DNA of 64,000 nt from Trichostrongylus colubriformis (taxonomy: Eukaryota; Nematoda; Chromadorea; Rhabditida; Trichostrongylidae): contig OZ022256.1 in assembly GCA_963978905.1 (NCBI GenBank), forward strand, positions 55,950,646 through 56,014,645. Direction: 5' to 3'. A model generated the notes under the pieces. The model made no database searches, had not been told where the DNA came from, and saw nothing but the letters and a program-made list of their open reading frames with translations. The position numbers and the translations under genes were made by a program. How positions within the stretch are numbered: position 1 is the first letter of the stretch; every line of letters starts with the position of its first letter. Shown here in pieces: positions 34,018 to 60,731 of the stretch.

Positions 34018-35362
34018 CAAGGGAGGTCTTTCAGGTCATGACGCGCTTTTGGGAAACAGTTTTTTCCATTATATGGGGGTACCTACATGAAACATATAAC
34101 TGACTTCCATTTTTGCTGTGCGTTCCTACAAATGCCAAAAAAGAAGTGAAAAAATTTTTTCTCAAAAAGGCGATTTTAACCCACTTATTGTAACGCATAC
34201 TCCTTGTAACTTTGATCACGTGCAGATCCAAAGGTGTTCGTCTATTTCACATCCAAAACAAAGTCAAACACGGTAAAAAATAAAATCTTGTCTCCATCAT
34301 GTACTAAAAGTGCGTAGCAGTTTAATAACGGTTCCCCGATGTACGGCTACTGCGGCGACCGGGTGGCCTACTGGATACGACGATGGACTCTCAAACGGAC
34401 GAAGTGCATAGGTTGGTGGTTCGTACCCCGGCGTTGCAGAACCTTTGCATTTTTTTTTGCCTTCACTGTTTCATCTTCAGATATGTCTGTTTATGCCAAA
34501 TGACTACGATTTTCGTTGACAGCATGCCAAATTGACTCTATTTACAAATTGTCAATGAATTTGGTGATGTGACCTTCTTGAGCATGAAAGGGCCCGTAGC
34601 GCTCGAATTTCGCGATTTCGCACAAAATGAGTGCCATATTCGTTTTTAGGGGGTCAAACTACCCCTAGGTACACATTTCTAGCCAATTCCAAATTTTGAC
34701 CCTAACTTCGAGAAAGACGTTTGGTCATGGATACATGGTGCCCCTTCTATTTGTAGAAGTGAGTAACTAACAAAATCGCTGAAAATCAGTGGAATATGCA
34801 CAGCATGGATGCCTATCACTATAATTTCAGCTATCAAGCACCAGGCAAGAGAAATAGTCAGGATTTCTTGACAAGTGATACCGTCCTCCTTCTTGAACGT
34901 GCAGTCGAAGGTATGTATACCCAACGCCCAGCCCAAATTTTCGAATTTGGGTCAAAACCCCGATTGGGCTGGAAACTTGTCCCTAAGGGTAGTTCGACCT
35001 CCTGAACACGAATATGAAATCCGTTTTGCGCAAAAACGCCTCGTTCGTGAGCTATGAGCGCAGAAATGTCAAAAGGCTGGCCTGTCAAACTTGCTGAAAA
35101 CTGACAGTAGAGGGTAGTCTGGAATTCTAAATGTGATTACTGCACTTATTTTTCATATTTAAGTGTTTTTGAGCCCAAAAACTAAAAATCCAAATTTTGC
35201 AAAAATTTGACCTCGGCGGGGATCGAACCATCAACCCCGTTTTTGGCATTCGTAAGGGTGCGCAGCAAAAATGGACATCAGTTATATGCTTCCTGTATGT
35301 ACCCCCATACATGCAAAAAGCGGCATTCAAAAAGCGCGTCATGAGTTGGAAGACCTTCCCTG
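34018..35362. mobile_element. Tc5-like TIR element 1, TTA duplication
   Basis: Long inverted ends beginning CAAGGGAGGTCTTTCAGGTC; the right end is CAGGGAAGGTCTTCCAACTC on the minus strand, and similarity extends beyond 120 bp (TCATGACGCGCTTTT, CATATAACTGA, CCATTTTTGCTG). TTA flanks both sides (34015-34017, 35363-35365) in the context CTTAG. C. elegans Tc4 and Tc5 duplicate TNA within CTNAG, hence the assignment. No transposase frame, so non-autonomous. Collinear over its length with 59393-60731. Confidence 0.85.
34359..34437 (+). other. tRNA-like module inside Tc5-like element 1
   Basis: A-box-like GGGTGGCCTACTGGATACG and B-box-like GGTTCGTACCCCG about 50 bases apart, the spacing of a class II tRNA with a long variable arm. 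The acceptor stem does not pair convincingly, so this is a relic or mimic rather than a tRNA gene. Confidence 0.4.
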
Positions 35363-36239
35363 TTAGAGACTTGTAGGAGGCTCACGGGCGCGGTGCTCCT
35401 CAATCCCGTTAGGGAACGAAGGGTGGTGGTAGCGGGAATGGCCTGGGGGGTTACGGCAGGTGCTCTGTTCTGTTGCGTTACAGTAGTTTGGTTCATACTT
35501 ATTGTTAGTATAAATTTTCCTCGATATTGAGCCACGCGATTGCGCAGCGTTTTCCACGATTGTTGGAGGCACTGCACGCGTCGTTGAGTTCACGCCATGA
35601 AGTTGGGGAGGGGGGGGGGGATGTGTACCTTAATGTCAGGATGCCGCACTGCGGAATGTCGCAAGCGAAGCAATGCGGACGAGCTAAATTGTTGGGTCCC
35701 GAAGCGATTAGAAGTCAACTGCGTATCGCACTCCTAGCATTACGTTGTAATCGTTTTGAGACCCAACTACCGCGACGCCCATAGCTCGCACACACTGTGT
35801 CGCACGCCGCTCGCCATCGTGCGGCATCCTGACATTAGGGTACATATCCGGGGGGGGGGGGGGGGGCGTGGTGTTTTCAGTTGACTTGTCATAACCGTTC
35901 CGTAGCCATTTACGGGTTTCCTCCATCGTCCACAGCTGAAAATTCGGCAGCACTGCTTTCTCTGCTTACACTCCATTTTCGTAATGAAGTGTTACATAGA
36001 CATAACTGTTCATAGCAGTTCTACCCCGTCTTGTCTTCTCATTGTATAAAAATGAATAATTTAAAAGGTTTATTCCAGAATAAAGATTACGTGCTGTTTG
36101 CTTTCTGTGGCGTCATGGGACCTTTCCACTGAGTCATGGGATATCAGAAAGGAGTATCCACCTGGATTTTTGAGGGCAGGATATTGGAGAGGTAACTAAT
36201 GAAAATCTTCCAATGAAAACTACTTCGCGTTCAGGATAC

Positions 36240-36700
36240 CGGAGTATGAAAACATTTTCTGAACTATAATTGGATGTAAAAGAAGAGTGGTATCATCTTG
36301 TAGAGCAAGAAAAGCTCTATAGAATGCATATATGCATATTCTCTCCAATCTCGACGATAGGCGAGGAAGAGGAGATAACCAAAATGCACACTTTTGCGAG
36401 TACTGCATTTCTGAGTCTTAAAAACAGCAAAAAGCTGAGCGATTTGAATGAAAAGTACTACCATTCTGTGGAGCTGAAAAAGCTCTATCGAGACATATGT
36501 ATACACATACATGTTTTAGTCTCAATGGCAGACGAGAAAGTTGAGGTGCGCAAGTGCCAATTTTCTGCCTTCAACGTACTTCATTTCCAAACTTCATAAA
36601 TATTGCGTAGTCGAAGGAATCGAAAATCAGATAGTATTCTTTTGTAGAGCAAAAAAAGCTCTATCGAAATCACATATAAGCTTCGTTGAAAAAAGTGGGA
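36240..36700. repeat. Tandem repeat with hairpin core, period about 175
   Basis: Three diverged units each contain a small hairpin of type TGTAGAGCNNAAAAAGCTCTAT (near 36292, 36467 and 36643), with shared flanks such as GAAGGAATC and CAGACGAGAAAG. Related units occur at 53930-54350. The open frame at 36270-36596 is a consequence of the repeat. Confidence 0.6.
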
Positions 36701-36714
36701 AAAAACGTTTTCGG

Positions 36715-36786
36715 TGAGGAATCAAATTCGCGACCTCTCGAACTTAAGCCCGAGCAGCTATCCACTCGGCTCTCCAGCAACGAAGT
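36715..36786 (-). other. tRNA-like segment, class II, degenerate
   Basis: On the minus strand: A-box GAGCCGAGTGGATAGC, an anticodon-like arm CTCGG...TCGAG around GCTTAAGT, and a T-arm-like AATTTGATTCC. The loop is one base too long and the acceptor arms do not pair. Ser/Leu-type ancestry or nematode long-variable-arm tRNAs are possible. Confidence 0.35.
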
Positions 36787-37183
36787 CTTTCTTCTTGGTT
36801 TTCCTATATGTACAAACTTAATTGCACCTCTTTGAACACCCGTGATTCTGCTCCTATAAACTCGCAGCAGATATGGAATGCAGATTGGTGAATGGCATCC
36901 CGAGCCCTATCACTGATATAATTCCCATTGCAAACGGCTACTTTAAGCTACCATACTTCCGTTAGTAGGATCTCCAACCTGTTAGATTCTAACTTCTACC
37001 CGATTTTTGACTTATCTTCGGATGGGAGATGGTGAGTCATGATGGCAGACATTTTGATGATGCGGCATGATCATTAGACGATGAAAAGTACTGAACATGA
37101 GAGCTTTGAGTAGTCACACAAGAGATTGAGTAGTCATAATCCAATCATACCCTTCCATTCGTATCAGTTCAGTTATGTTTCAG

Positions 37184-37263
37184 ATCGCCATTTCGAACAA
37201 AACAAATGGGGTATCTTGACACGTGATAAGTTTGTGGGTTCCGATATAGACATTTTTTTCGAG
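37184..37263 (+). CDS. Second-series exon upstream of FN3 region
   Basis: After TTATGTTTCAG, phase 1 in and phase 0 out at GTTAGT, reading RHFEQNKWGILTRDKFVGSD then IDIFFE. It joins in phase to the exon at 37488. The Trp and alternating hydrophobics suggest part of a beta domain; no confident assignment. Confidence 0.58.
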
Positions 37264-37487
37264 GTTAGTTTCCACGTGCACAAAAGCATAACGATAAGTC
37301 ACAACCATATGAACATGTACGCTACGGAGTATAAACTTTAAAGGTTCTCTCAATTTGTCTGAGAAATCACATTGAAGGTACAATATCGCTCCAAGCTCAA
37401 TGAAACCGAGCTAGTGACAATTATTCGAAACCATGATTCCAGGGCGGATAGCTGCAAATCGAATTACTGGAATAATGTTTGATTCAG

Positions 37488-37650
37488 GGCAAAAAAATAA
37501 CAAATTATCGATGGGATTTCTATGTGAAGGATAATGAAGTCAGGCTATTCGCACATCGTGGGAACACGGGTCGTTATGATTTTGTAGTGTACAGCAAGGA
37601 AAGAGATTATGCAGAGCTTTATCCAATTGACGTTTTCTTCGGAAATCAAC
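37488..37650 (+). CDS. Second-series beta-domain exon, FN3-like or unknown
   Basis: After TTTGATTCAG, phase 0 in. It reads KKITNYRWDFYVKDNEVRLF, AHRGNTGRYDFVVYSKERDY, then AELYPIDVFFGNQ, a run of alternating beta strands. The favoured donor is GTGGGT (phase 1). An alternative at 37766 (GTCAAG, phase 2) would chain directly to the exon at 37873. Clearly protein-like, but domain identity is not certain. Confidence 0.62.
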
Positions 37651-37872
37651 GTGGGTTTCTAATATTTACCTTTCATTATATGCATGAAGGTCCTGCATAC
37701 ACACTCCCATTATCGAGCCTCTTCTCAACTTGCGTTTTGAACCGTAACTACTACATGGGATCCAGGTCAAGCATGGAATGACGGAATCTCATGTAGGATT
37801 GTATTCTAGATCGGGAAGGGGGAAGGGCTGTGCTTTTTTAGATTTTCGCATATCCTGTCCTACACCTTTTAG

Positions 37873-37966
37873 CCTTTCTGGCTTGAAGAGGAGGTCTTCA
37901 GATGGTTATTCGATCACCGTATTTCGTTCTATCGATGACGACATTTTTAGGAGTTGGAGAGACGAT
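37873..37966 (+). CDS. FN3 E-F-G strand exon
   Basis: After ACACCTTTTAG, phase 2 in and phase 0 out at GTATGA. It encodes LSGLKRRSSDGYSITVFRSI then DDDIFRSWRDD. 'L-x-G-L, then GY-x-I-x-V' is the FN3 E-F strand signature. The other two frames contain stops. Confidence 0.65.
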
Positions 37967-38619
37967 GTATGACGTAGTCGCTTCGGGGAAAAGTTGTATT
38001 TTTCAAGAATCTTACTCAGCACAACGCTTGATGCACGATGATATCTGGTCTACGCAATGATGCCTCGGTGTAATGTCGTACAATAAGCTATCGCTTTCTG
38101 GTACTTTGAACTCACTGTTGCGAAGAAACCCATCCCACACCCGACTACACGCATGAAGTAATAATTGCTCTGCATCGAAGGGATTCAGCAGATTACAGAG
38201 CGGTCTCCGGTGACGGTAGTAAGGTAACCGAATCAGGCAGTTATGAGAATACATTCAGTCCCAAGTATGCTGTAGATTTCATGCAATGAGTTAGTTTGGC
38301 ACAACAAGCTTTCCCACTACATACATATATATACAGTATAAAGTTGTGAGAAACTGGGTATATTGAAGCGATCGCAAGCCTTATAAGAAGTATACTGTGC
38401 ATAGTTAATCGTCGTACTGTACGGAGAGGGCCAAAATATTGACGGAGTGGAGTATTGGATCGCATCATTGGATGAGCCCAAGTTCATGACTGTGAATTCC
38501 ATAAGACTATGACTATGTCAAATCAGAAAATTACCGGTCTAAACTACCGATGCCGCGAACTCAGTGAGCCTGTAGCAACGCACACTATGTAATACTCTGA
38601 TCCCTCGTTTGAATTCCAG

Positions 38620-38673
38620 TATGGAAGTGGAAGTCGACATTCCGAACAGCTCACAGAAATTAGTTACTCGAAT
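38620..38673 (+). CDS. FN3 A-B strand mini-exon
   Basis: After TTGAATTCCAG, phase 2 in and out at GTATTG, encoding MEVEVDIPNSSQKLVTR. Joined in phase across Tc5-like element 2 to the exon at 40587 it forms one FN3-like sequence. The preceding exon ends in phase 0, so one exon between may be missing. Confidence 0.45.
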
Positions 38674-38777
38674 GTATTGATTGCGTCATAATAAAAAATT
38701 CAGTTCAGTACTGCTCAGCCACCCTCCTGTGTATTCAGTAGGATTCTAGATTTTCTACATCTTCTTCACTACCCTTA

Positions 38778-40118
38778 CAAGGGAGGCCCATCAGGTCAAG
38801 GTGAGCTTTTTCAAAACGGTTTTTTGCATTTTATAGGCTCACATACATAAGCAAAAAACCGGTTTCAAAATCGGCTAAATGGTTTTGGGGGGGGGGGGGG
38901 GGGGGGAAGAAAATGGTTGATGGTTCGATCCCCACTGAGGACAAATTTTTGCTTTTCTCTAGTTCTCATCCATTTATGCTCATGTATGACCACACGTGCA
39001 AAATGTGTGCGAAATCATTTTTTATTATGTCGGGGGACCGCTATCTTCAGTATTTTTGCGTATTAGGCGAATGATTTGTTTGGATCTGCCAACGCTCATA
39101 ACAGGAAAACTAGGCGTTTTCCCGCAAAGTACGTGTGATACTCATATTCAGGAGGTCGAACTACTCTAGGTAACAAGTTTTCAGCCTAATCGAGATTTTG
39201 ACCCAAACTCGAATTTGGGCGACCACTAGTACTACTACTACCATAGTGTGAACGCTCAACGAAAAGAAGTCGGTAGCCCATATAAGGAAATTTTTGCTAT
39301 CTTTCGCCGTCGCATGGTGTTGCTAGGTGCAGTTCACTTGGAATGCGTTGATTCTGCACATGCTCCATTGCATTTAATCGAGGCTGTAAGTTGTTCGTGT
39401 GTACAAGTAGTGCAGTGACTGTGTGCCCATGTCCACCCCACTGTCTCTAGTTTGGGTGAAGATCTCAATTTGGATAGTGTTTTGTATCCAGGGCTATTTG
39501 AGTCTCCTGAGCACGAATATCACACTAGTTTCGCACGAAAATGTCTGCCAAGCGTGCTAAGAGCGCCGAAGTGTCCAAACACGTTGACCACTGAAAGCTT
39601 GTAAATGAGGTCACTTTCGTGCACCAGCGATGAAAATTGTAGTCATTTTGCATGTGCGCAAATAGTACAGCACTGGACAAAGAAAAGGAAAGCGAAAACG
39701 TCGGGAGGAGTTGAACCGCAAACGCCTCCTCCACCGTGCCAACGCCAGTCCGTTCCCCTATCCATTCGGCCATCCAACCACTGCGAGAACTCTGTCCTGT
39801 GCAGCCCCTATGAGTCTTCTTTGCTTCGTTTAGTAATTACCATAAGCGATTCTGCATTTTTGAACGAGCTCGCAGTGGTTTTGGCGTAGGTTTGATGACA
39901 GTCTTCCGATATTCATATACTGAACGCCGCAGCTGGAAAGCATTGCAGTAAACTGGTCAAAATTGTTTCTTTCTACACAACTTTTGGCACTCATTTTCTG
40001 GGCCCCCCAAAACCATTTAGCCAAATTTGAGACCGGTTTTTTGCTTCATGTATGTGACCCTATAAAATTCAAAAAACCGTTTTGGAAAAGCTCACCTTGA
40101 CCTGATGGGCCTCCCTTG
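38778..40118. mobile_element. Tc5-like TIR element 2, TTA/TCA flanks
   Basis: Inverted ends CAAGGGAGGCCCATCAGGTC and its complement, extending through CAAGGTGAGCTTTT and AAAACCGGTTT. Flanked by TTA (38775-38777) and TCA (40119-40121), CTTA left and TCAG right, as expected for a CTNAG target with one later mutation. Contains a run of 22 G (38887-38908) and a tRNA-like module. No transposase frame. Lies in the intron between the exons at 38620 and 40587. Confidence 0.8.
39704..39783 (-). other. tRNA-like module inside Tc5-like element 2
   Basis: On the minus strand: A-box GGATGGCCGAATGGATAGG, a long variable-arm-like GTGGAGGAGGCGTTTG, and B-box GGTTCAACTCC. T-stem pairing is imperfect. This is the most tRNA-like of the modules (Ser/Leu-like class II). 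Confidence 0.45.
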
Positions 40119-40586
40119 TCAGCTGAAAAGCACCTTCATGATTATTTTTCGAACTACGTGATTACTTTTGTTACCAGAACATTTCTGTAGAGCATGCGTC
40201 GTGACATGAGGTCAAGTTGCCTCGCTCTAACTTGAAAGATGAAGTTAGTGGCCATGCCTCCGTTACACCTCAGCAGAAATTAACTCCACTCCTACGTCCG
40301 CTGAATTACAGGTCATGTTCCGTACGCTTTTCATGTAAGTGCCCAAACTACATCTGCAAGAGTGTTTTTCCGCAAGGAGGAGTCATATGAGGATATAAGC
40401 GATAAAACGAAGTGCGCAATTTGCAACGATCTGAGGTGAATGTTAATTGCCATCAATTCCTAATTTGTGCTATTAACTTTTGTACCTCACCGGGTCAGAG
40501 GGTATGATTTGCGAGACTGACTCCATAGCTTTTCCTTCAAAACCTGTCGTTGTTACTCCTTATTTCTTTCACTTTCATCTTTCCAG

Positions 40587-40680
40587 TGCGATAAATTATT
40601 ACAATGAATCCGACGTCGTTAAACCGCTAAGCAATTCATTCAACATCAGCCGATTTGATGCAAGACAAACCACGTACATG
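40587..40680 (+). CDS. FN3 exon, D-E-F strands
   Basis: After CATCTTTCCAG, phase 2 in and phase 0 out at GTATGG. It reads AINYYNESDVVKPLSNSFNI then SRFDARQTTYM, matching FN3 'F-x-I-x-x-h-x-x-x-T-x-Y'. The following intron runs nearly 8 kb to 48557 and holds the LINE and Tc5-like element 3; at least one exon is expected there. Confidence 0.7.
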
Positions 40681-40755
40681 GTATGGTTTATGCAGATTCT
40701 AGATTTGCAATTTAATCTCGTAATTGGACATAATAGTTCATTTTGTTAGAGGCAT

Positions 40756-42570
40756 CATTAGGGGTAAGGGAAAACTGAGCTGGAGGTAAATGTTCTCTGA
40801 AACGAACCTTCTACTTCAAGAGGGGTCACATGTGGTGAAAATCCCATAAAAAAAAACGCGAGTTGGGGTCTTATGGGCAGGGTCAAGCTTCCAGTTGAGG
40901 AAAATTTTCAAAAAATACGACCCCCCACCGAAAAAGGGCCCCGATACGACCCCCCACCCTCTTTTTGCACAGAACCCATCAAATTAGCTTTTCTTGATTT
41001 TTTGAATACTAATCACCAATATAGAACTAAATGGACGCAAAAACCCGAAAAATATGTGGTACAGGTGGAATTCCCAATAATATAGGCCAATATATAAACT
41101 ATGAATCCTAGATTCTAGATCGGATCACGCTTCTATCTCATAATCGAACAATTGCAAATAATAATCCAGAATACCCTACACATCTACAGAAGTTCAGGAT
41201 CTCATGTCAGGCGACGGCTGCGACGCGGCGATCGAAGGAGCGCGGTATCTTCCCCATACTGAATTCCGACATTATTAAAACACTTCAAACTTTACCTAGA
41301 GCCCATCTTTCGAACAGCTGTAAACTGTTTTCCTAATAACTCCCTTAGACCTATCTATTGGCCGCTTGCTTTCCTCAATTGTTGCTTAGTTCTCGATATG
41401 GAATTCTAGTTGAGGATTAGTTGAGGAAAATTTCAAAGTGTTCCACGGAAATGGCCATAACTTCCTTCAAACTTAACCGCATGAGTTCCTTTTGGTGAAG
41501 CAGGGTCTGTTAGGTTGTCGCTTTCGAACGACTACCTGAGCTATGCCATATCTTCAAAACGAAGAAGGTTATTTTGAGAGAAGTCAGTTGAGGATTAGTT
41601 GAGGAAAATTTCAGTGTTTCACGGAAATGGCCATAACTTCCTTCAAACTCAACCATATGAGTTCATTTGAGTGAAGCAGGGTCTGCTAGGTTGTCGCTTT
41701 CGAATGACTACCTGAGCTATGCTATATCTTCAGAACGAAGCAAGAAAAGTTCAAAAAAGCCAGTTGAAGGAAGCTTTTCTTCGTCGAATTTGCGAGATTC
41801 CACGAATCTTCCCAAAAATCGATTCATTGTTACTGAAATTTATTTAGTACGCATACTTCGCTCTCGAGCGCCTACTTGGAGAGCGAGAAGCGTCGGTCAG
41901 CTTCTTTGTGGGATGCGCCATGCATGAGGATTTTATCTACACCCGGTACCCGCTGATAGATGTTGCTTTTTACGGCTTATCGGTGAATTCCGGAGGTGTC
42001 TCTGTACGTGATTTCGGTGTCAGCGGACCAACGAAAGAGTTATTGGTACTGGCCGGTTTCGTTCTGGATTGCGCCATGTATGAGGTTTCCATGGTTATTA
42101 AGTTAAACTAGTTTTGGGTTCGACCCATTCAGTCAATTTAATCACTTCTCCCCTTACACTTTAGACCCTAAGCCTGAGAAATTCTGCTGATCACTGCCTA
42201 CCTCAACAATTACGACCCCCCCCCCCCTCCTAGCGGACCACATACGACCCCCCTGTTGAGGATTCCTCAACGGAAGCTTGAGCCTGCTTATGGCGGCCCC
42301 GCAGCTCGTCATGCCGTTATGCCGTTATGCGCCCGGGGGAGTCGACATGGAGGGGCGGGACAACAATCGCGGCCGGCTGGTTGAGACTCTGGCTTGTCTT
42401 CAGTCCACTCCGACCAGAGACGCAGAGGACGAGAGAGAGAAGGAGGTATTTCGGGTTCCTACTTCTTGGTTTTTTTTTTTTTGCCGTTTTATGTCGTTCT
42501 TTTTCTACTGTTATACTACTGAGCGCCTCTACTTTCGTGATTCCCCCCATTTGCCAAAATTGCCCCTAAC
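40756..42570. repeat. Family B fragments and a 178 bp tandem duplication
   Basis: Family B fragments lie at 40756-40830 and 42250-42570. Two direct copies of a 178-base unit start at 41410 and 41588 (TTGAGGATTAGTTGAGGAAA, GGCCATAACTTCCTTCAAAC, GCAGGGTCTG). A run of 12 C is at 42216-42227. The open frame at 41908-42108 contains its own internal repeat (GCGCCATG-ATGAGG) and is not called a gene. Confidence 0.6.
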
Positions 42571-43604: not shown

Positions 43605-45835
43605 CTGTAATACCTACTTACTTAGGTTACTTAGGCGACCCATTCCTCAGCAACCGATGGGCTTCGCGCGGGTCCCAACTTCTATTCCTTCTGTAACGAT
43701 CTTGCGCCAGAGTCGTCCAATGGGCGATCAGCTGTAATGAGGCTGGATCTACGACATTGTTTCTGAGTGCGATCGAGTCGAACCATCGCATAAGCGCTCG
43801 GCCGTCTGGGCGCATAAGGTCGTTTGGGTACCAACGGATAGTGGCAGCACTCCATCGGCCATCAGTGCGCCGCATCAAATGCCCTGCGTAGCGATGTTTT
43901 GATTCGTCGGCGTATGGGAGCGCATCCTTTACTCTAGACATTGCTCTGATGTCGGAATTGTGCAGGCCAAGTTCCCGTTGCCGGCTAAGCGTGAACCCCA
44001 GCAGCCGCCGTTCGAGTGAAGCCTGTATCGTTTTCAAGTATTTTTCCATCGACGCCGTCAGTGTCCAGGTCTCGCATCCGTGGCACAGCGCCGGTAGCAC
44101 AGTTGAATTGAACAGCTCCGCTCGAAGTTTAATGTCCTTGGTGTCGTCGATCACACACTTGAAGCAGTTGAATGCAGACCAACCTGCCTTTCGACGTCTC
44201 TGGATCTCCGGCTTGAGATCGTTTCTCATATTGACAGACCGGCCTAGATATACATATTCCGCTACTTCCTCGAGTGCATTCCCGTTGAGGTGCACTACGC
44301 CTGGTGGAGCGAACGAATTCCGCATAACCTTCTTCTTTGCGACGTTGATAACGACGCCTTGGCTCCCTCACGGTTGAGGCTGCTAAGCATTTCCGATGCG
44401 TTGCTTGTCGTATGTGTGATCAGCACCAGGTAATCCGCGAACCGGAGATGATTTAGCTCCTCACCATCTATATTGATACCAAAATCGGTCAATCACACCG
44501 ACGTATGGCGGTCTCCAAAAATGCCGAGAACAGGTTTGGCGGAATCGGATTTCCTTGTCGAACCCCCTTTCCGATTATCACCTAGCAAACATCATTTGCA
44601 AAAGGTCGTATGGTTGTTGTACAGCCAGTATAGCACCGTTGTAGAGCACGTATATACCGTCTTTCCACGCCCTGCTCCTCCAGCGAATTCCATACATAGG
44701 TTGGTTCCACAGAATCAAATGCCTTCTCATAGTCGATCAATGTGAAGACGAGAGGCATTTGATGTTTACGAGCTACCTCTGTCAAGCGGCAACACGTAGT
44801 GATATGGTCTAGGGATGCTGAATGTTCGGCAAAATCCTGCCTGCTCGACCGGTTGTGCCTCGTCTAAAGTTCTTCGTATACGGTTTAGGATGCAGCGGGT
44901 GAAGATTTTATATATCACTGGCAGTAGAGTGATAGGGCGGTAATTTGACAAGTCCTCTTTGTCTCCCTTCTTGAACAGTAGAACTGTCTTCGATCGCTTC
45001 CAAGCAGTTGGTACCTCGCACTCCGTTAGATAGCGGGTGTATCTCTCTACTAATGATGACTATAGTAGCGTACCGCAAGCCCGTAAGAGTTCCACTGTGA
45101 TTCCATCACTGCCAGGCGATTTCCCCGAAGGCATGTTATCGATGGCATGGCGCACTCCTGAGGACAGGATAGGTAGAACGTCGTCTCCAGTATTCGAACT
45201 TTGCGGGGCGGGTACGTGGCTTGATTTGTAAAGATCGGAGTAAAAACCGACAACCAATCCTTCCATTTCCGGCCTCGACGAAGTGCGGGTGCCATCGAGA
45301 CCCTTCACGGAATCGTCAGGTGGTACTCGGTCAAGCTTCTTCTAGCCCTTCTTGGACTGCTTTTCTCCTCGGCTGCCCTCAGCAACCTGGTGCGTGTGTA
45401 GTTGGTATGGTCTTCGATGACTTTTTTCCTGCACAACCTGCTGAGGATCGTGTACTTCACAGATTGGCGCTGCGATCCATTTGTCTTCGCTTCTCTAGCA
45501 GAGCCCGTGTAGGCGAGGAGATGCGGCACCCGCGGTGAGTGGGGGCGTTGTGGCGACAGCGATTCCTTATTCCACTTATTGTGTTCACAAGCGATTCGTA
45601 GTCGTTGTCGAGATCCTCTTGCATCGCGAAATTCTCCTCCATTGCCATCGTGCCTGCAGCAGCTGTAATAAGCGTCAAAACCGTACTAAACCTGTACTTT
45701 GGATCCAGCGTCATACGATATAGCTGGCGTTGTGTGTATGTCGTCAGAACAGAAAAGTCGCGCGGCCGCGTGCGGCGCGCGACGATCGCGCACAAGTTGT
45801 CCAATCGGCTGGGGCAGCACATTTGCGTCAAAGCT
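43605..45835 (-). pseudogene. RTE-type LINE, 5'-truncated, broken frames
   Basis: Minus-strand reverse transcriptase in several frames: SGKSPGSDGITVELL near 45120, NYRPITLLPVIYKIFTRCIL near 44950, FTLIDYEKAFDSVEPTYVWN near 44750, and FADYLVLI near 44440, where the second catalytic Asp of F/YADD is Tyr. A long intact C-terminal frame (44325-43627) has YVYLGRSV and LPALCHGCETWTLTASMEKY, typical of RTE-like and related elements. The endonuclease domain is absent. After the stop the 3' end consists of short TAAG/TAGG repeats, as in RTE-clade tails. Confidence 0.85.
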
Positions 45836-46203: not shown

Positions 46204-47254
46204 CAAGGGAAGGACCCCAGGTTGAAGTGGCCATTCGGTATTGGATGCATATGGTTCGACGTATTTTCGGACGCTGATCCCGAATCTGTACTCAAAATTT
46301 GCAGAACGATTCTCTGAGCGGAGTTATGGAGGTTTTTCTGAATGAACGGCTACACGTTGGACCTCATTAGTGAGGCACTACTTCATCAGCACGGCCGTTG
46401 CTTGGCTAGCAACGGCACCAGTGGCTGACTGGTAGTGTTCCAGATTTGCAGGGCAGTGGTCATAAGTTTGCTCCCCACGGGTGCGGGTTTTTTGCATTTT
46501 GTGTTTAATTGCCTGTAAGTGCTTTAACTTTATTTCTGGACGTTTCCCTTGTACTGGAACCTATCGCACCCAACATTTACTCTGCCACTTTATTTATAAC
46601 TAGTAACATTACTCACAAGGAAAGGATACCAAGTCGAAGAGATTCCCGTACCACACGAATTGGGCGTTGTTGCGTAAAAAGATGATGATATTCGGGCACT
46701 GGAGGTCGCATTACCCCTCTGTGCAAATTTTCAGCCAAATCCAGTTTTTTGTCCAACTTCGGAAAATTGGGGTGACCAGGGGATAAAGTGGCAGTTTTTG
46801 AATTTTCTTCTTTATAAAACCCTGCAACCCGATCAGGATATCCTACACATACCTTTCACACTTGCCCATCGCACTCAATGTACGAAACAAGCGTAAATTA
46901 GGAGCATTTCCCAGGCAAGGGTCAACGACTTCTACTTTGTTCAATTTACTGCCACCCTATAGCCCGTGAATTTTTCCGAAATTGGTCAAATTCTCGAATT
47001 GGCTAAAAACTTGTCCCTTGTGATAGTTTGACTCCCTGAACACGAAAATCGCTCTGGTTTTGCGCAAGAACGTCTGGCTCGCGTGCTATGGCCTTCCGAA
47101 CCTACCATGAAATAGTACTGTTCAAAAAAACCTCCATAACTCCGCTCAGAGAATTGTTCTGCAGTTTCGAATACAGACTCTAGATCAGCGTCCGAAAATA
47201 CGTCGGACCAAATGTATCCCATTCCGAATGGCCCGACCTGTGGTCATTCCCTTG
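46204..47254. mobile_element. Tc5-like TIR element 3, TTA duplication
   Basis: Inverted ends CAAGGGAAGGACCCCAGGTT and CTTACAAGGGAATG-type complement; arms of about 160 bp share GACGTATTTTCGGACGCTGA and AGCGGAGTTATGGAGGTTTT. TTA on both sides (46201-46203, 47255-47257) in CTTAG context. Shorter than elements 1, 2 and 4 and with different arm sequence beyond the tip. No transposase frame. Confidence 0.85.
46420..46484 (+). other. tRNA-like module inside Tc5-like element 3
   Basis: A-box-like AGTGGCTGACTGGTAGTG and B-box-like AAGTTTGCTCCCC, about 45 bases apart. The weakest of the four modules; B-box GTTCGA core is degraded. Confidence 0.3.
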
Positions 47255-47257
47255 TTA

Positions 47258-51610: not shown

Positions 51611-52033
51611 GATGCGTTCATACTTTACGCACCTACTCCGGCACCCTGGCAGCGGCGACGGTAAAGTCATGTGCCCGCCCCGACAACGGCGACACTTCAG
51701 TGATGCGATCCGCTTGCAAAACGCCTGACCCACAGCAGTACAGAAAGGTGATCGTGACGGCAGCCACGAATTTTAATTCGAATCTTGGCACACTGCCAAA
51801 CTATGCATGATGATCGCGGCGAAACTCACGACTTCGAATTCGATTCTTGGCATAGTGCTAAACGCAGGCAAGATTCTAATTTGAATTCGTGGGCTCTAGC
51901 CACTGTCATAATACTGTAATGTGGTTGGGTCGAGCGTTCTGCAAACGGAGTGCCGCCGTGGTCGGTGGCAGGCACGTGATTCTGATGCCGTCGCTGCCGG
52001 TGCCAGTGGCAATGCGCAAAGTATGAACGCCGT
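51611..52033. repeat. Family A full copy
   Basis: Inverted ends GATGCGTTCATACTTTACGC and GCGCAAAGTATGAACGCCG; internal blocks GGTTGGGTCGAG and GGCAGGCACGTGATT match the copy at 3625-3945. Central duplication of AATTCGAATCTTGGCA-like sequence. Confidence 0.65.
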
Positions 52034-52679: not shown

Positions 52680-52920
52680 GGTGGGGTCCACGAGGTCGAA
52701 TTTCAGCGCGGCCGCGCGCGATGAGCGGCACGGCGGGTGCGAGTGCCGGTGGTAGGGCATGGCAGCCTTCAAGCGAGGCAGTGTGGCATGAGTGGAAAGC
52801 GCAGACGTGACGCAGTCACGCTCGGCCGGGCGACCAAGGGCAATCGATACGGCGAGTCGTACGGGGGCGCCGCGGGTGAAAGGCCGCTAAGGGGAAATTC
52901 GACCTCGTGAACCCCACCCC
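52680..52920. mobile_element. Family D MITE, 9 bp target duplication
   Basis: Inverted ends GGTGGGGTCCACGAGGTCG and CGACCTCGTGAACCCCACC, flanked by AGTGAAATG on both sides (52671-52679 and 52921-52929). The core GGCGGGTGCGAGTGCCGG and GCAGCCTTCAAGCGAGGCAG is shared with 8888-9150. Confidence 0.82.
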
Positions 52921-53182
52921 AGTGAAATGAGGGGAGACGAACCAACGGTATAGCATGTTGCAGGTCACTGATGAAAAAATAGAAGTCAGTTGGAAAGGAA
53001 AAACTTCAAAATATTTAGTATGTTTTGCTGGAAGTTTTTTTTCATAAATCTTTTTCACTGGTTCTATTGATCTTCTATTACAAGGTATTAGAAGCATCTA
53101 AGGAGCAGTGTTTCAAAATATTTCCTACGGATAAGTTTTGAACTGATGAATTGTTACGTTTTAACTCGTTGTTTTGATTCAG

Positions 53183-53293
53183 CTTTCTTTCAAACAAACA
53201 ACTCCTAAACCAGAAATTGAGTTACTAAAGAAGCAACCAGTAATGAAGACAGACTACATTTTCACTGGACTGCAATCGTCAGCGACTTATGAG
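53183..53293 (+). CDS. FN3 exon, B to E/F strands
   Basis: After TTTTGATTCAG, phase 0 in and out, donor GTGGGT. It encodes LSFKQTTPKPEIELLKKQPV then MKTDYIFTGLQSSATYE, ending with the FN3 'L-x-x-x-x-x-Y' motif. It follows the linker in the exon at 51381, making the last FN3 domain of the second series before the coiled coil. Confidence 0.8.
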
Positions 53294-53703
53294 GTGGGTA
53301 CTAATGTTTCACCTATGAAAGAGTTCCAACATGGGTAAAAAATTTTTACGATTATTTTTTATTGTTGGCTACTTTGCTTCAATGGCAAATCACAAACGTG
53401 CGAAGTTCTGCATGGGCGTTGCGCGGTACATCGAACCTGTGCAATTCAACTTCATGCCAAATGTTTTATGTACGAAAAGAAAATACAATAAAAAAGCAGA
53501 GTAGGTTGGCAGAGTTGCTTTTCCTGGAGAATAGTGGCTGAACCTAATGATGTGCTAAGTTGTAATGCAGTGGTCCCGAACCCCGCTGATAAGCTTCGGT
53601 ATTGTACATGTTACAATTGTCTCAACGATAATCTCACAATCGCAGGCAACATTTTACAATACGTTTACAAAAACACAATACTCTCATTGCAATAGGCTTA
53701 CAG

Positions 53704-53791
53704 AGAGTCCTTCTGCTGTGAAGGATGATGTGATGGAGAGCACTGAACAGATGAGGCGAGCGTTAGCTAAAATGGAAGGAGAGGAACGAAC
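53704..53791 (+). CDS. Charged helical exon before second coiled coil
   Basis: After GGCTTACAG, phase 1 in. It reads ESPSAVKDDVMESTEQMRRA then LAKMEGEERT, acidic and helical. A weak donor (GTCATA) gives phase 2 out, matching the exon at 57607. Entry phase does not match the phase-0 exit of 53183-53293, so one small exon is probably missing. Confidence 0.48.
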
Positions 53792-53929
53792 GTCATATTG
53801 ATTTGTAGAGGTGTATTGAAGGCGAAAAGGAGATGTTGAAGGAGATGAGCTGAATCGGCGAGATGTATAAGGTTGAGAAATAAGTTTCCGCTGTTTTTTT
53901 TATTCTCTGTGTTTCGCAACGTTCTCTTC

Positions 53930-54350
53930 ACCTTTCGACGAAGTTTTTATATGTTTTCGATAGAGCTTTTTCAGCTCTACAAAACGATTTCATATTTTTT
54001 AACGTTTGATTTTTTTGCTATTTTTAAGGTTTAGAAATGGAGTAATTTCTAGGGAAAAAAACCTGCACTTTTACCGTGCGTGCACACTTTTGCTGGGCGC
54101 TGTATTTGTGTGTTTTAGAAACAACAAAAGTCGAGCGATTCGAATGAAGGGAAGTTCCCTTTTGTGGAGTCCAAAAGGCCCTATCTGCGCATAAATTTTT
54201 TGATCCCGGTGGCAGACAAGGAAAGTGAAGCCTTCTGCCTACTTTATCAAAGCTCATAAATATCAGGCAATCGAAGGGATCTAGAAACAAAATGCAGCAC
54301 TGTGTAGAGCAGAAAAAACTTTCGAAAATATCTATAAGCTTAGTCGAAGG
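53930..54350. repeat. Hairpin-core tandem repeat, second locus
   Basis: Units with GATAGAGCTTTTTCAGCTCTAC near 53957 and degenerate forms near 54155 and 54305, with AAGTCGAGCGATTCGAATGAA and CAGGCAATCGAAGGGATC shared with the array at 36240-36700. Confidence 0.55.
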
Positions 54351-54517
54351 ATGAAGGGAACAATGTGAAAAACATAGAACAAAAAAAAAACGGCGGGAAC
54401 GTATTCCTCAACCTGATAGATGAATGTGAGCGGCAAGAAATAGAGAATGGTTCAGGCTGGGTGAATCGAAATGGACACGAAAGTGGGAATAATCGTTCGA
54501 AAAAACACGGGAATAAG

Positions 54518-54650
54518 ACCGCCCACATACTCTGCAGCGCCGACGATAGGGCGTGGCTGCATTGTAACTTGTCACCGCACGTGCCCTTCTGTCATACCAC
54601 TGTAAACGCAGCCACGCCCAGTAGCCCTCTGGCACGCCGGGGCAACCGCA
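54518..54650. repeat. GC-rich inverted repeat related to family A core
   Basis: GATAGGGCGTGGCTGCATTG and GCAGCCACGCCCAGTAGCC form inverted arms; GGGCGTGGC is shared with the copies at 16175 and 27660. Ends not resolved. Confidence 0.4.
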
Positions 54651-55505
54651 GAAGGCTACCAAAAAAGAAATGCAGTGGACGGTAAGTGGAGAAAGGGACT
54701 GTTCCACCCAATGCAATCCTTCTCCCTTTGCAGTGTTCTCATTTGCAGTTTACTCCGTTGCTACTCTACTAAACTAAAACTAAAAGTGGTGAAGCGAAGT
54801 CATCCAAAAGTGTATCCTTTACTGGATGCTGTATTCGTCTCAATAATTTGAATTTCATATGGGAATTATGGGAAGAGTCATATCTGGGAAGCAACTTTTA
54901 TCAATTCACGGGGCCCGTCAGAATCAATGATCTAGGATGACGCGCTTTCGAACTGGATTAATCTAATGAATTCGAATACTGGCCGAAAAATAATTTGCTT
55001 ATAGGAGGTTCTCCGATATTGGCCCAGGCAAAAACCTACACCCCTTTCAGATGAGACATCTCAGGGAAGATACACGAAAAATGAGTATTTCGTGACGCAG
55101 GGTGTGTGTCATTGGAAAGGGAAATTCGCTCTCCGGTGTCCGGCCTGCAACGCGATTGGTGCGAGATAAGTGCGTCGTGCTGGATGAGTTTCAACGCCAT
55201 GACGGTATACGCCTCATTACGGGCGTAATCGGTCCAGGACTCATCTGAAAGTGCGCATTGCTCGCACCCATCGCGTCGCGCGCCAAACGCGTCCACGCGT
55301 ATTTTCTGCCCCAGTGGCAGGCACCCCGTTGTGCATTCTCATACATTTCGTTTATTGCACATTCACACATAAGAGCACGTGAAAGACATTGCGACCTTCT
55401 TTCCTGCACGATTTCATAACAATAGAGTGTCATGAGGGTGAGAATGGGTATTTACCTTACGCCCAGGGAGGAAAAATGATAAGCCATTGTGTGTAAGGTG
55501 GACGA
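54651..55505. other. No gene recognised
   Basis: No splice-bounded coding island or repeat family was recognised. Minus-strand open frames at 55036-55430 have no domain content. Confidence 0.35.
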
Positions 55506-56082
55506 ATTCAAATATTCTACAGTATCATCATCGTGGCGGAAGAACCACCTCTTGTCATCATGCCAACCTTTTCAACTACCTGCAGTGTGTGCTCTGCGTC
55601 TCAATTCTGCACAGAAACGATTCTGATGAGAAAATTCGTGCTTTTTTCCATCCCATGTTAGCCTAATCCTTAGGGACTTAGGGAAGAAGACTCCCTTCCC
55701 CTAGGCTTAGACGAATAGTAAGTGGTTACTCCAAGTTAAGCGAATTTTTTTAACACACTAATGGAAGAATTATTCAACCGTTTTCTCAGTTGGCAAGTTG
55801 TATTTAGGCATAAGACCTTGAGAAAACCTATCAGCAGAAACTGGGCGCGACTCATGCTTTTGTCGAGTGCCCCCACCCCCCCCCCCCCCCCCAACTACCT
55901 TAGCACCTAAGGTCGTAGTCATACACTTGATGGCGACATACCGGCAGAAGAACGCGCGAACATAAAGCAAACCTGATACGAAACCATCGGTCAATACGCT
56001 GTACGATGGTTGAAAAAGTTTGGCGTGATGCCAAGATGTCAGGGGCTCCCGCCACGATGATATTACTGTAGAATATTTGAAT
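55506..56082. mobile_element. TIR element of about 577 bp
   Basis: Inverted arms of about 75 bp: left ATTCAAATATTCTACAGTAT, ATCATCGTGGCGG and GCCAACCTTTTCAAC; right arm is the complement (GTTGAAAAAGTTTGGC, CCGCCACGATGATATTACTG). The interior includes a small hairpin (CCTAATCCTTAGGGACTTAGG) and a 17 C run (55876-55892). No coding capacity; target duplication not identified. Confidence 0.72.
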
Positions 56083-56243
56083 TTGTCTACACTACACGCA
56101 AAGGCTTATGGAAAAATGAGCTCTGCTGTTGGGTAAAAGTTGGATATGCAAATGAGATGTGGTTCCCCTTGTTCTTCTTCGACTAACCATAATAAATACG
56201 CATTATGCATAAGCAGTGAGTGCTCCGTGAGTAGAAAATACTA

Positions 56244-56323
56244 TACCTTCTACCGCATAATATCAGCCAAAATCCATACTAACACGTGTATGGATTTTGG
56301 CTGATATTATGCGGTAGAAGGTA
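56244..56323. repeat. Perfect 36 bp inverted repeat, 8 nt loop
   Basis: TACCTTCTACCGCATAATAT begins the left arm (56244-56279); the right arm (56288-56323) is its exact reverse complement throughout. The loop is TAACACGT. Confidence 0.95.
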
Positions 56324-57606
56324 AACATGTTGTGTTTTCGTCACAACTATTGACATATTTATAGATAACACTCGCTGCAACAGATGGATCTTTCTTACCA
56401 TTTAAAATGGTCATCAGTACTGTGGAGAAACTCGAACTTCAGAGGTTGGTGCATAAGTGTTGCGACACATGTGACTTTTTTTCAAAGCTATCACCTTGAA
56501 GCTTTTAGAAATATGCAGGTGATATAATCATCGCTATCTCTTACTACTTGCCCACAATGACTAGGTAGCTGCTCGATGTCCTATGCTAGGAAGTTTACGA
56601 GCCGCGATTCGAAAAACCCATGAATATGAGATTCGAGTGTGGTTAGGCTTCAGTCTAACTTCTCACTTTTTATGTGAAGCGCGGGGCCCCGATTGAGTAG
56701 TATTCGGAACATTCAGGATAACAGAACCCGTAGGATGAAGCGGAATTTCAGAGTCCAGCTTTTTCTTCCATTCGCCTTATCCTTGGGACACGCTGCTATA
56801 GGCGTCCATGTACGAAGGCAAATAAGCTGATTTTTGAGAAGCGGTGAAAGCAAGTATAATCTAATTTCTGGAGTTGTTTTTCACACGGATTAGTCGTTAG
56901 TACAAGACGATACATCTCTGGTTGCGGCATCCTGAGAACGTCTGGGGCAAATAGAACTGACCTATGGTTGATGTGTACTACTCAAATCTCATCTCTAATT
57001 ATGTGTCGACGGTCTTTTGTCAATAAATGAAAGCACAACAAAGATTTTGAGCCACTCATACTGCTGCCTTGCAGGACTCACTGTGTCGGTGAGACACCTG
57101 AACCGCGTATAGTTTTTAGGAGCAGTAACAATTTAGTAATGTGCCAGTTGCCGTATAGGTAAAGTAAGTATCGCTGTTACTCATCGCATGAGTACTTTTG
57201 GTTTTGCTTTCAATCCTCCGAGAATATCATCCTATTTAGGGGGTGCCTAGCACCTGTAGGTGGGCGAACAGTATGGTTCGTATCTCTTGATCCAAAGCGA
57301 GTGGAGCAGCGGGGCTCTATATAATACTATCTCAGTCACTGCAGCACAAAATAAGCAAATGCTCTCCAACTAGGGATCCTGAAGACACTTGTAAAAAGCT
57401 GGTGTCTTAATATGGGATTTCCAATTTGAGGCGATTCTCGCTACAACTAAGTAGGATCGCCTTATAAACATACGTTTTCAGAAAATTGACGAAGCATGCT
57501 CATATTCACTGTAGTAATCGAAACACGATAAAGCTCAGAAGTAGCGAATCCACAAGAAATTTTGGATGTGTCTCATATATGCAACGCCGAATATGAAATA
57601 TTACAG

Positions 57607-57797
57607 TAAATCGATGCAAGAAAAACGTGCAGAAATCAAGCGTGTGGGGGTCGAGTTGCAAGGATTGGAGGAGAAAATTCGTGAGAACGAGAAAATGATA
57701 GAGACGTTTGAGCAAGAACTACGTGGAGGTGAAGCAACCATTAATGAGACAAGCATAGAGATGGCAAAAATGGCGACGGAGTTGAAATCAAGAAAAG
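57607..57797 (+). CDS. Second coiled-coil exon
   Basis: After GAAATATTACAG, phase 2 in and phase 1 out at GTTGAA. It encodes about 63 residues of pure coiled coil: KSMQEKRAEIKRVGVELQGL, EEKIRENEKMIETFEQELRG, then GEATINETSIEMAKMATELK. It parallels the exon at 21671, which also follows FN3 exons. A hydrophobic C-terminal exon was sought: 58510-58568 after GCGCGCAG opens in phase 1 (LLGTCLGIHSATCIVL then stop), but support is slight. Confidence 0.68.
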
Positions 57798-59392
57798 GTT
57801 GAAGAAGTGTTTAGTTCTTTTTTATTTCTTAAACATGCTCTTTACCCTTTCCCAATATCGCCGCAATGACCGCAGTGATAGGGGCTTTTATAAAAAGTTG
57901 CACGCCTGAGCATCTCTGAGTGGTTTCTTAGAGGTCAATTTATACACTCAAGAGTATATTTGTGTTTAAAGGCACACCACGTGATAATCAGGGCAATCAC
58001 TCATCTTGTTAAATGCTTAGGATGCACCATTGTTGTAGCATTACAGCGCATCCTTACTTCGCTATACCCGCTCGAACTCCACCAGGCTACATCCACACAA
58101 GCAAATCACGCCTGCCACTAGGTGAATCTGTTTCTTGAGTAAAATATACGTGCGAGGAAGGCTTGCGAACCAGAGATAAGATAGTATGAGACGGGAATCC
58201 TAATGGTTAATACGACGTTATCACGGCGATACTGATATACCGTTGGGCTATGTCTGATACCATCGAGTAAAGACTCGTTTCTGGGATCAGTACTCTCATT
58301 CTTGCTGTTTCTAGAGATTTTCGTTCGCTTTCTCTTCTCTGTTTAGTGAATCAGAACCTCAGCTTTCAGTAGTGTGCACGATAACACTTTCGATTTATTG
58401 TGAGGTGAGCTTTTCAGCTTCAGAGGAGGAGACAATGGATCCCATCCTCTTCTAGGCATAAGTAGAATAGCATCTATCTCTCTTTCCTATTTTACTTTAT
58501 TGCGCGCAGGACTTCTTGGGACATGCCTTGGGATCCACTCTGCTACTTGTATCGTTCTTCCTTCATAACTCATCAGGTACAACAGTTAGATGGTACACCA
58601 CTAGCAATAGTTAGATCGTAAACCATTACATTGAGATGGAGGTGAGGCAATGAACTTCAAAGGGATAGTTTACGATAATATGAGTGTCTTGGTTCCATCC
58701 GCGAGTAGATAGGCCCTACCACAACGGCAAAGTGTGTGCCATCTCCGCGGCGTGAGGGTTGAACGCCAAACGCGTGGAGAACCCGTAAATCAGCTGGCGG
58801 CCACCGTCTCAAGGTGGCCCACACCCATTCTACGACTTAGCCAGCAGAGCAGCGGTGGCATCTACGTAGATAAGAGGCAAGATATGGACTGCGATAAGAT
58901 AGGATAGGGAGGATTCCCTTAGTAGCAACCTTATCGAATGTTATTATCACGCAAGAACTTGTTCAACGGCTTGCTTCTAAGTTGAAAAACTCGCCGAATC
59001 AAAAGGTCAGAAACACCTTATTTTGAGCATTTTCGGAAATTTCTTCGGCTGCATCTTCGCTTAAGTAATCTTCAGCACCCTCAGAGTCTTTAGGGAACGC
59101 GAAGACGCATGAAAATTATCGTGAACTGTGCCTTTAATACCGCCATGCTAGCTTGTAATATGTAGGAAGGCAAAATCGCTAACTTGTACATCCGATGTCC
59201 ACTCAATTGATTGTTCGTGGAAATAGCATTTAGAGACACATATCGCGATAAACGGAATCGTCGACTCTCGGAATAGCAGATGCTTAGGTAACTATCCAAG
59301 TCATACCCTTTTTATTCAGCGATACCCAAACACGAAGCAAATCTGCTCAAACTCACGCCGACCACGCCCGTTTAGCTTAGCTGTCCAGCTCA
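57798..59392. other. No confident gene
   Basis: Holds a family C fragment (57890-57970), a family F arm (57965-58000) and the weak candidate terminal exon at 58510-58568. A GC-rich stretch at 58730-58870 has no recognised origin. Confidence 0.35.
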
Positions 59393-60731
59393 CAAGGGAG
59401 GTCTTTCAGGTCATGACGCGCTTTTGGGAAACGGTTTTTCCATTATATGGGGATACCTACATGAAACATATAACTAACTTCCATTTTTGCTGAGCGACCC
59501 TACGAATGCCAAAAAAGGAGTAAAAAAATTCTTCTCCAAAAAAGCAATTTTAACCCACTTATTGTAACGCATACTCCTTGTAACCTTGACCATGTGCAGA
59601 TCCAAAGGTGTTCTTCCATTTCACATCCAAAACAAGGTCAACTATGGGAAAAAATACGATCTTACCTCCACCATATACTAAAAGTGTGCAGCAGTTTCAC
59701 AACGGTTCCCCGATGTGAGTTGGTTCAGTGATCGGATGGCCTACCGGATACGACGATGGACTCTCAAACGGTCGAGAGGGATGCGTTGGTGGTTCGGTAC
59801 CCGGCCTTGCCAAAACTTTGCATTTGTTTTTGCCTTCACTTTTTCATCTTCAGATATGTCTGTTTATGCCAAATGACTATGATTTTCGTTGACAGCATGC
59901 CAAAATGACTCTGTTTACGAATTTTCAGTGAATTTGGTGATATGACTTTTTTGGACACATAAGGGCCCGTAGCGCTCGAAATTGGTGATTTCGCGCAAAA
60001 TGAGTGCCATATTCGTGTTCAGGGGGTCAAACTACCCTTGGGGACACATTTCTAACCAATTCCAAATTTTGACCCTAACTTCGAGAAAGACGTTTGGTCA
60101 TGAATAGATAGTGCCCTTTCTATTTGTAGAGGTGAGTAACTGACAAAATCGCTGAAAATCAGTGGAATATGCACAGCATGGATGCCTGTCGTTATAACTT
60201 GACCAACCAAACATCAAGCAAGAGAAATAGTCAGGATTTCTTGACAAGTGATACCGTCGTCTCCTTCGTTGAACGTGCAGTCGAAGGTGCCCAGTGCCCA
60301 GCTCAAATTTTCGAATTTGGGTCAAAACTTCGATTGGGCTGGAAACTTACCCTTGGGGATAGTTCGACCTCCTGAACACGAATATCGAATGCGTTCCACG
60401 CAAAAACGCTTCGTTCGTGCGCTATGAGCGCTAAAAGATCAAAAAATTGGACTGTCAAATTGCTGAAAATTAGTAGTAGAGGGCAGTCCGACGTTCTAAA
60501 TGTGATTACTGCACTTAATCTTCACATACAAATGTTTACGAGCCAAAAAACTGAAAATCCAAATTTTGCAAAAATTTGTCCTCAGTGGGGATCGAACCAT
60601 CAACCCCTTTTTTGGCATTCATAGGGCCGCTCAGCAAAAATGGACATCAGTTATATGATCTTTGTACGCACCCCCATACATGCAAAAAACAGCTTTCAAA
60701 AAACGCGTCATGAGTTCGAAGACCTTCCTCG
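59393..60731. mobile_element. Tc5-like TIR element 4, TCA duplication
   Basis: Ends CAAGGGAGGTCTTTCAGGTC and the complement of CGAGGAAGGTCTTCG; TCA on both sides (59390-59392, 60732-60734) in CTCAG context. Collinear with element 1 (34018-35362) through its whole length, same orientation, differing by scattered substitutions and small indels. Contains the same tRNA-like module at 59728-59810 and no transposase frame. Confidence 0.87.
59728..59810 (+). other. tRNA-like module inside Tc5-like element 4
   Basis: A-box-like GATGGCCTACCGGATACG and B-box-like GGTTCGGTACCCG. Homologous to the module in element 1, with an extra G in the B box. Confidence 0.4.

Follow-up and report, generated by a model that had tools for sequence, protein, structure and literature searches.

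tRNA-like promoter modules and a surrounding substitution hotspot in Tc5-like transposons of the nematode Trichostrongylus colubriformis

Four Tc5-like elements and their box modules

A 64,000-nucleotide (nt) stretch of the genome of the nematode Trichostrongylus colubriformis (GenBank assembly GCA_963978905.1, contig OZ022256.1, positions 55,950,646 to 56,014,645 of the forward strand; hereafter, the window) contains four Tc5-like transposons, E1 to E4, each with a module that is laid out like the internal promoter of a transfer RNA (tRNA) gene, namely, an A box, a B box and a run of T. In the three families to which these elements belong, the sequence around the boxes has accumulated substitutions at about three times the rate of the rest of the element. 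The ends of all four elements are of the CAAGGGA type and adjoin TNA, and none of the elements overlaps an open frame of 120 codons. E1 and E4 are 86% identical and form one family, and E2 and E3, which have the end motif and an internal inverted-repeat block in common, represent two others. A previous reading of the window by a model, made from the sequence only, had assigned all four to a single Tc5-like family; their Tc5-like character stands, but the families are three.

34018..35362, + strand: E1, Tc5-like non-autonomous transposon, with a TTA target duplication (34015-34017 and 35363-35365)
38778..40118, - strand (that of its module): E2, flanked by TTA and TCA, the duplication being inexact in this copy
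46204..47254, + strand: E3, of the third family, with a TTA target duplication
59393..60731, + strand: E4, of the E1 family, with a TCA target duplication

The module consists of an A box, a B box, about 12-20 variable nt and a T-run, usually followed by GCATTTT. The order of A box, B box and T-run is that of a type 2 promoter of RNA polymerase III (Pol III), with the B box degenerate in E3. The parts are placed as follows.

34336..34363, + strand: stretch of about 28 nt upstream of the E1 A box, hypervariable in the family
34364..34377, + strand: E1 A box, TGGCCTACTGGATA
34418..34428, + strand: E1 B box, GGTTCGTACCC in this copy and GGTTCGAAACC in the family majority; A-to-B spacing 54
34450..34458, + strand: E1 T-run, terminator-like; variation is back to baseline about here
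35219..35229, - strand: E1 right-arm consensus B box, in the orientation opposite to the module
38922..38932, + strand: E2 right-arm consensus B box, in the orientation opposite to the module
39772-39759, - strand: E2 A box, TGGCCGAATGGATA
39717-39707, - strand: E2 B box, a consensus match, GGTTCAACTCC; A-to-B spacing 55
39695..39698, - strand: E2 TTTT, terminator-like; 11 nt of the family's T-rich stretch are absent from this copy
46422..46435, + strand: E3 A box, a good one
46465..46475, + strand: E3 B box, weak and degenerate, AGTTTGCTCCC, with GGTTTGCTCCC as the family majority; spacing 43
46488..46493, + strand: E3 T-run, then GCATTTT
59737..59750, + strand: E4 A box
59791..59801, + strand: E4 B box, GGTTCGGTACC; A-to-B spacing 54
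59827..59831, + strand: E4 T-run
60588..60598, - strand: E4 right-arm consensus B box, in the orientation opposite to the module

The box positions given in the sequence-only reading were borne out by inspection of the sequence, pattern searches and a recheck of coordinates. Its claim of a paired A and B box in every element holds for E1, E2 and E4, whereas E3 combines a good A box with a degenerate B box; the one B box per module that it listed is there, but the three consensus B boxes of the opposite arms had been missed. The A-box pattern TGGCYNANYGGNTA, which was composed after the modules had been seen, matches three times in the window, always within the modules of E1, E2 and E4 (shuffle mean 0.09; at least three matches in 0 of 100 shuffles). 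The B-box pattern GGTTCRANYCC matches four times, always inside the elements (shuffle mean 0.48; at least four in 0 of 100); the sole strict match in a previously listed module is that of E2, the other three being in the opposite arms of E1, E2 and E4. The best A and B pair, in E2, agrees at 19 of 19 scored positions, compared with maxima of 16 or 17 in 60 Markov-simulated windows. By themselves, the scores of E1 (17) and E4 (16) are within the chance range, and E3 is below the listing threshold of 16; the support for these three modules comes from position and conservation within the families. The right arm of E2 also contains a G-run of 20 nt (38887-38906) that is shorter in the other copies shown of this family.

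We searched the genome (331 Mb in 52 contigs) for further copies. The first-look candidates numbered 644 for E1, 1959 for E2 and 3684 for E3, and 40 per family were scored; the alignments comprise E1 with 38 of its 39 other scored matches, E2 with 38 of 39, and the module region of E3 with 20 of 39. Judged by eye, a 3-bp TNA target duplication flanks 24 of the 27 copies L002-L028 of the E1 family (L013 and L016 are cut on the left and L022 is unclear) and 27 of the 29 copies L030-L058 of the E2 family (L034 and L047 differ). With inverted ends and this duplication, the elements as a whole are not short interspersed nuclear elements (SINEs), which have no terminal inverted repeats. At least 12 of the 14 A-box positions agree with the family majority in 38 of the 39 E1 rows (the remaining row is cut short of the module) and in every one of the 39 E2 rows; for the B box, at least 9 of the 11 positions agree in 38 of the 39 rows of either family. 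The module region is present in 21 of 21 rows of the E3 family. Scans of viral contigs with the module and with the terminal repeat produced no matches in either case.

The module is also found in relatives linked to a transposase. The loci L110 and L111 have ends of the same kind as E1 to E4, TNA duplications, and terminal repeats of about 445 nt that are 97-98% alike, with a Tc5_C domain between the arms. By eye, both arms of each locus contain TGGTGTACTGGATA, then, at a spacing of 44, GGTTCGRGTCC (L110) or GGTTCGGATCC (L111), and then CTTTTGC; one of these four B boxes conforms to the strict consensus. A related, partly decayed module was discerned by eye in L108 and L109, so that the module is present in five of the five families examined, which were sampled via the window or the Tc5 domain (the domain locus L107 is not counted). 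Among 20 further transposase-linked stretches (401 bases each, at a fixed offset), 11 have no match to the L110 arm and 6 match outside the module only; two were used, and another, L132, which fell below the coverage limit, was added later and presented the same picture. The left B region of E1 resembles the reverse complement of the right-arm block of E2 (44 nt, 73%, E 0.018), a weak hint that the ancestor might have had a module in each arm. By eye, L110 and E1 have TACTGGATACGA followed by TGG in common, and a single origin of the modules, with later insertions and deletions, appears plausible.

Kinship with tRNAs and the missing fold

For comparison with the tRNAs of the same genome, tRNA-Leu(UAA/CAA) and tRNA-Ser(GCU) genes were located with a class II pattern, allowing at most two mismatches, and named by ARAGORN; the pattern matched 109 times on the forward and 64 times on the reverse strand, with no matches in the reversed control. 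The E1 consensus module aligned with tRNA-Leu at a local score of 44, which was reached in none of 1000 mononucleotide shuffles (maximum 33), and with tRNA-Ser(GCU) at 38, ungapped, with 26 identities in 33 positions (0, 1 and 0 of 1000 shuffles as high for the three gene copies). Against the class II tRNAs, the modules of E4 and E2 scored 32-34 and 30-31, respectively, values reached by 0 to 2 of 1000 shuffles; with tRNA-Lys, E3 scored 26 (2 of 1000) and L110 scored 24 (22 of 1000). The likeness to class II tRNAs with long variable arms that had been noticed in the sequence-only reading is accordingly supported for E1 and E4 and, less strongly, for E2, but does not extend to E3 and L110, where the spacing (43 and 44) is that of class I. 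Of the tRNAs compared, Leu(UAA/CAA) and Ser(GCU) are the nearest. Judging by these alignments, we take the E1 module to be tRNA-derived; the case for E2 is weaker, and for E3 and L110 such derivation is unproven.

A tRNA fold supported by covariation, one of the two features on which the sequence-only proposal had been staked, was not found. The tRNA covariance model of Rfam (RF00005) yielded no match at the gathering score and none at E<=10 in positions 30000-64000 or in four 201-bp stretches. Covariation assessed with RNAalifold was no better for the E2 module than for any of 81 windows along the element and ranked the E1 module 30th of 81. With default settings, ARAGORN called none of the modules; at the 85% threshold, those of E2 and E4 were two of eight calls in the window, and the lowered thresholds are too noisy. 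Together, the negative results of ARAGORN (default), Rfam and RNAalifold rule out a surviving tRNA gene. We also considered a conserved RNA stem and rejected it: the E1 module alone can form a long stem, yet this has no support from covariation.

The genome-wide scan with RF00005 scored 63 of 25793 candidates, most of them from one tandem array of tRNA-Lys(TTT) genes (G000:C1:29424695-29436656, L100-L106; unit of about 200 bp, at least 53 listed), where ARAGORN was run on L099, L100 and L106 only. Tandem arrays that fit the class II pattern occupy G000:C5:41349162-41356114 and C7:4840887-4849198; from the few units checked, these are of the tRNA-Leu type (unit of about 145 bp) and the tRNA-Ser(GCU) type (unit of about 163 bp).

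A substitution hotspot around the boxes

We counted substitution steps per site by parsimony, on trees built from the remainder of each element. In all three families, a stretch that begins some 28 nt ahead of the A box and extends to the T-run has a rate raised approximately threefold; at the T-run, the rate is back at baseline. In the E2 family (n=39), the counts are 4.08 in the 25 nt upstream, 2.51 between the boxes and 3.10 in the 20 nt downstream, with 1.14 in the A box and 1.73 in the B box, compared to a mean of 1.23 and a maximum of 2.08 among 1116 overlapping control windows. The corresponding values for the E1 family (n=39) are 1.36 upstream, 0.48 between, 1.35 downstream, 0.21 in the A box and 1.00 in the B box (1115 control windows, mean 0.40, maximum 1.08). 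In the E3 family (n=21), the 28 nt upstream have 2.04 steps per site, the last 13 nt before the B box 3.31, the 12 nt after it 1.83, the A box 1.29, the B box 0.82 and the T-run 0.53 (control stretch 0.70; maximum 25-base window 1.20). In E1 and E2, the A box does not exceed the baseline, and profiles in ten-base windows drop back to it at the T-run.

The excess is made up of different kinds of variants. In E1 it resides in singletons, for which none of 999 control windows is as high. In E2 it is carried by variants that are shared and homoplasious (none of 1000 windows as high), the consistency index being 0.45-0.49 in the three hot segments vs 0.58-0.82 in the others. In the hot segments of E2, C>T changes exceed G>A changes (p 0.001; 18 C and 33 G sites), with p 0.22 in the rest of the element. 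The ratio of transitions to transversions is 68:57 in the hot segments vs 620:431 in the rest for E2, and 36:25 vs 240:159 for E1. Gap-rich columns were examined as a cause and do not account for the signal; decay of CpG sites does not fully explain it either, the E2 hot segments remaining high when such sites are removed. Just upstream of the E3 A box, a hairpin is located at 46394-46417, with a loop that is hypervariable in the E3 family.

Comparison between families places the A box well above its upstream flank in conservation, in keeping with the expectation of the sequence-only reading: the E1 and E2 consensus sequences are 0.86 identical in the A box, 0.86 in the right B block and 0.36 in the 25 nt upstream, with an overall value of 0.60. 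E4 and the E1 consensus have 56% identity in the 25 nt upstream vs 85% overall, another stretch, near 689-731, being as low. The L110-type arms (7 arms from 5 loci) follow a similar pattern, with 0.051 upstream, 0.034 downstream, 0 in the A box and 0.004-0.009 in the near flanks; their B box is at 0.065, and with 6 arms a farther stretch reaches 0.026.

Elsewhere in the window, there are near-perfect palindromes at 27660-27892 and 56243-56324, the latter with sub-threshold matches to microRNA models that probably merely reflect the hairpin. The open frames at 1646-2654, 31355-31789 and 43627-44367 look, by eye, like remains of mariner-type transposases and retrotransposon reverse transcriptases. 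A direct repeat at 41437-41767 consists of a 155-nt unit in two copies, 86% alike, with a spacing of 176 nt.

Possible roles of the module and comparison with known systems

On balance, we think it probable that a tRNA-derived Pol III promoter, comprising the A box, the B box and the T-run, has been inherited within this Tc5-like lineage, has lost the tRNA fold while being retained at the DNA level, and is engaged by TFIIIC, and at least at times by Pol III, in the germline. The transposase-linked members would carry the module in both long terminal repeats and the non-autonomous families one full module, plus a right-arm B box in E1, E2 and E4. Engagement would yield a short RNA, some 100 nt long, or a site occupied by TFIIIC, and would create a mutation hotspot beginning roughly 28 nt ahead of the A box and ending at the T-run, with the A box largely spared in two of the three families. 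The element might benefit through accessible chromatin, by evading silencing, or from an RNA. That the fold is lost but the A box, B box and T-run are retained fits a promoter or binding site better than an RNA gene, and a raised rate over a stretch shaped like a transcription unit fits mutagenesis tied to engagement by Pol III or TFIIIC; tRNA genes and their flanks are fast-mutating. We read the hotspot as a probable trace of Pol III or TFIIIC activity. The sequence data themselves establish the anatomy of the elements, the presence of the module throughout the families, the similarity of the E1 module to genuine class II tRNAs, the lack of a supported fold and the hotspot in three families; binding, transcription, function and a single origin of the modules we infer. 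The wider proposition, that a tRNA gene has become a standing part of the terminal repeats, is used as a Pol III or TFIIIC promoter, has been spread genome-wide by several families in the form of tRNA-like Pol III or TFIIIC sites and can be recognised from sequence alone by a hotspot in the shape of a transcription unit, is more tentative, and we entertain it without leaning toward it.

A number of observations weigh against this explanation. The A box is raised in E3 (1.29 vs 0.70), and the B box, cold in E3 only, is raised in E1 (1.00 vs 0.40) and E2 (1.73 vs 1.23); a hotspot next to the B box of E3, which is degenerate in the entire family, is unaccounted for and strains the expectation that only intact boxes would produce one. 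The B blocks of the right arms show no hotspot (1.22 and 0.22 steps per site). Single ten-base windows elsewhere reach 1.6 in E1, near the hottest value of 1.7, and 2.4 in E2. Shared variants are not raised around the boxes in E1 (341 of 999 control windows as high), singletons are hardly raised in E2, and the E1 hot region has neither strand asymmetry (p 0.77) nor raised C>T. The homoplasy could come from gene conversion. The copies of the E1 family were picked with the module as query and are a biased sample in this respect. No convincing alignment with tRNA-Leu was obtained for E3 (score 22; 46 of 1000 shuffles as high) or L110 (16; 578 of 1000), and by consensus fold energy the E1 module ranks 9th among the 81 windows.

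The strongest of the other explanations overlaps with the one proposed, so that the two do not exclude each other: the modules could be insulator-type extra-TFIIIC sites, bound by TFIIIC without Pol III, with the element benefiting at heterochromatin borders. In Caenorhabditis elegans, according to Stutzman et al. 2020 (PMC6950938), 504 TFIIIC sites without Pol III bear both boxes, and 214 of the 225 extra-TFIIIC sites on repeats are CeRep3, a suspected tRNA pseudogene. The right-arm B boxes without a good A box are in line with this possibility, but a hotspot with its end at the T-run and, in E2, with strand asymmetry points to transcription, and we regard binding by TFIIIC alone as a possible but rather unlikely account of the modules.

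The hot region might instead have arisen independently of transcription, by gene conversion or recombination between modules that had diverged, or owing to a fragile structure in the DNA. The high homoplasy of the E2 hot segments and the hairpin upstream of the E3 A box are compatible with such an origin. Several features are at odds with it: the balance of transitions and transversions is like that of the remainder of the element; the hot region has an edge at the T-run and, in E1 and E2, encloses a cold A box; there is strand asymmetry in the E2 region; and the stability of the E2 module, 55th of 81 by energy, is not out of the ordinary. We consider this explanation unlikely. About as unlikely is a passive passenger, that is, a tRNA gene captured once in the ancestor and hitch-hiking since then as an inert pseudogene, with boxes that look conserved as the copies are recent. 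The lack of a supported fold and of a tRNA score, the youth and similarity of copies within the families, and boxes that are not uniformly cold are all as such a passenger would have them. However, an inert piece is expected to change at the background rate of the element, so that a rate about three times higher next to the boxes in all three families, two of which have an A box no faster than baseline, speaks against it, as does the difference between the A box and the upstream flank in the comparison of E1 with E2; we doubt this account accordingly. Insertion of a SINE into the Tc5 ancestor, a chimerism suggested in the sequence-only reading and one that a tRNA-like head with a T-run would suit, is very improbable because the transposase-linked relatives have the module inside both terminal repeats. 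Neither a SINE-type tail nor an inner target duplication came to notice, although no systematic search was made for these or for free copies of the module.

Should the modules bind TFIIIC, these transposons would scatter tRNA-like chromatin sites across the genome, and the repeat-borne extra-TFIIIC sites of nematodes could have their source in them. The hotspot would then allow Pol III engagement of repeats to be read from DNA alone, and the role of extra-TFIIIC repeats would become testable in many genomes.

Among known elements, Tc5 (Pfam PF04236) is characterised by a TNA target duplication and CAAGGG-type ends, and the elements described here share both, along with the Tc5_C domain inside L110 and L111; to our knowledge, Tc5 does not carry a module derived from a tRNA within its terminal repeats. 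tRNA-derived SINEs keep the A and B boxes while the cloverleaf decays, and are in this regard similar to the modules, but differ in the terminal inverted repeats and the 3-bp TNA duplication of the elements here. Promoters of tRNA genes are familiar as the heads of SINEs, and we know of none that is an inherited part of a DNA transposon; among the literature matches listed, none described a Tc5-like or other inverted-repeat DNA transposon with a module derived from a tRNA.

The nematode class II tRNAs known as nev-tRNAs (PMC4300185), among them nev-tRNA-Gly(CCC) and nev-tRNA-Ile(UAU), resemble the modules of E1, E2 and E4 in the class II spacing between the A and B boxes, but their genes encode a perfect cloverleaf and the modules do not. 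By description, the closest known case appears to be CeRep3 at TFIIIC-bound sites: it is likewise a many-copy interspersed repeat, suspected to be a tRNA pseudogene, at sites with A and B boxes, and differs in that TFIIIC binding has been measured there, whereas the modules here are known from sequence alone (PMC6950938).

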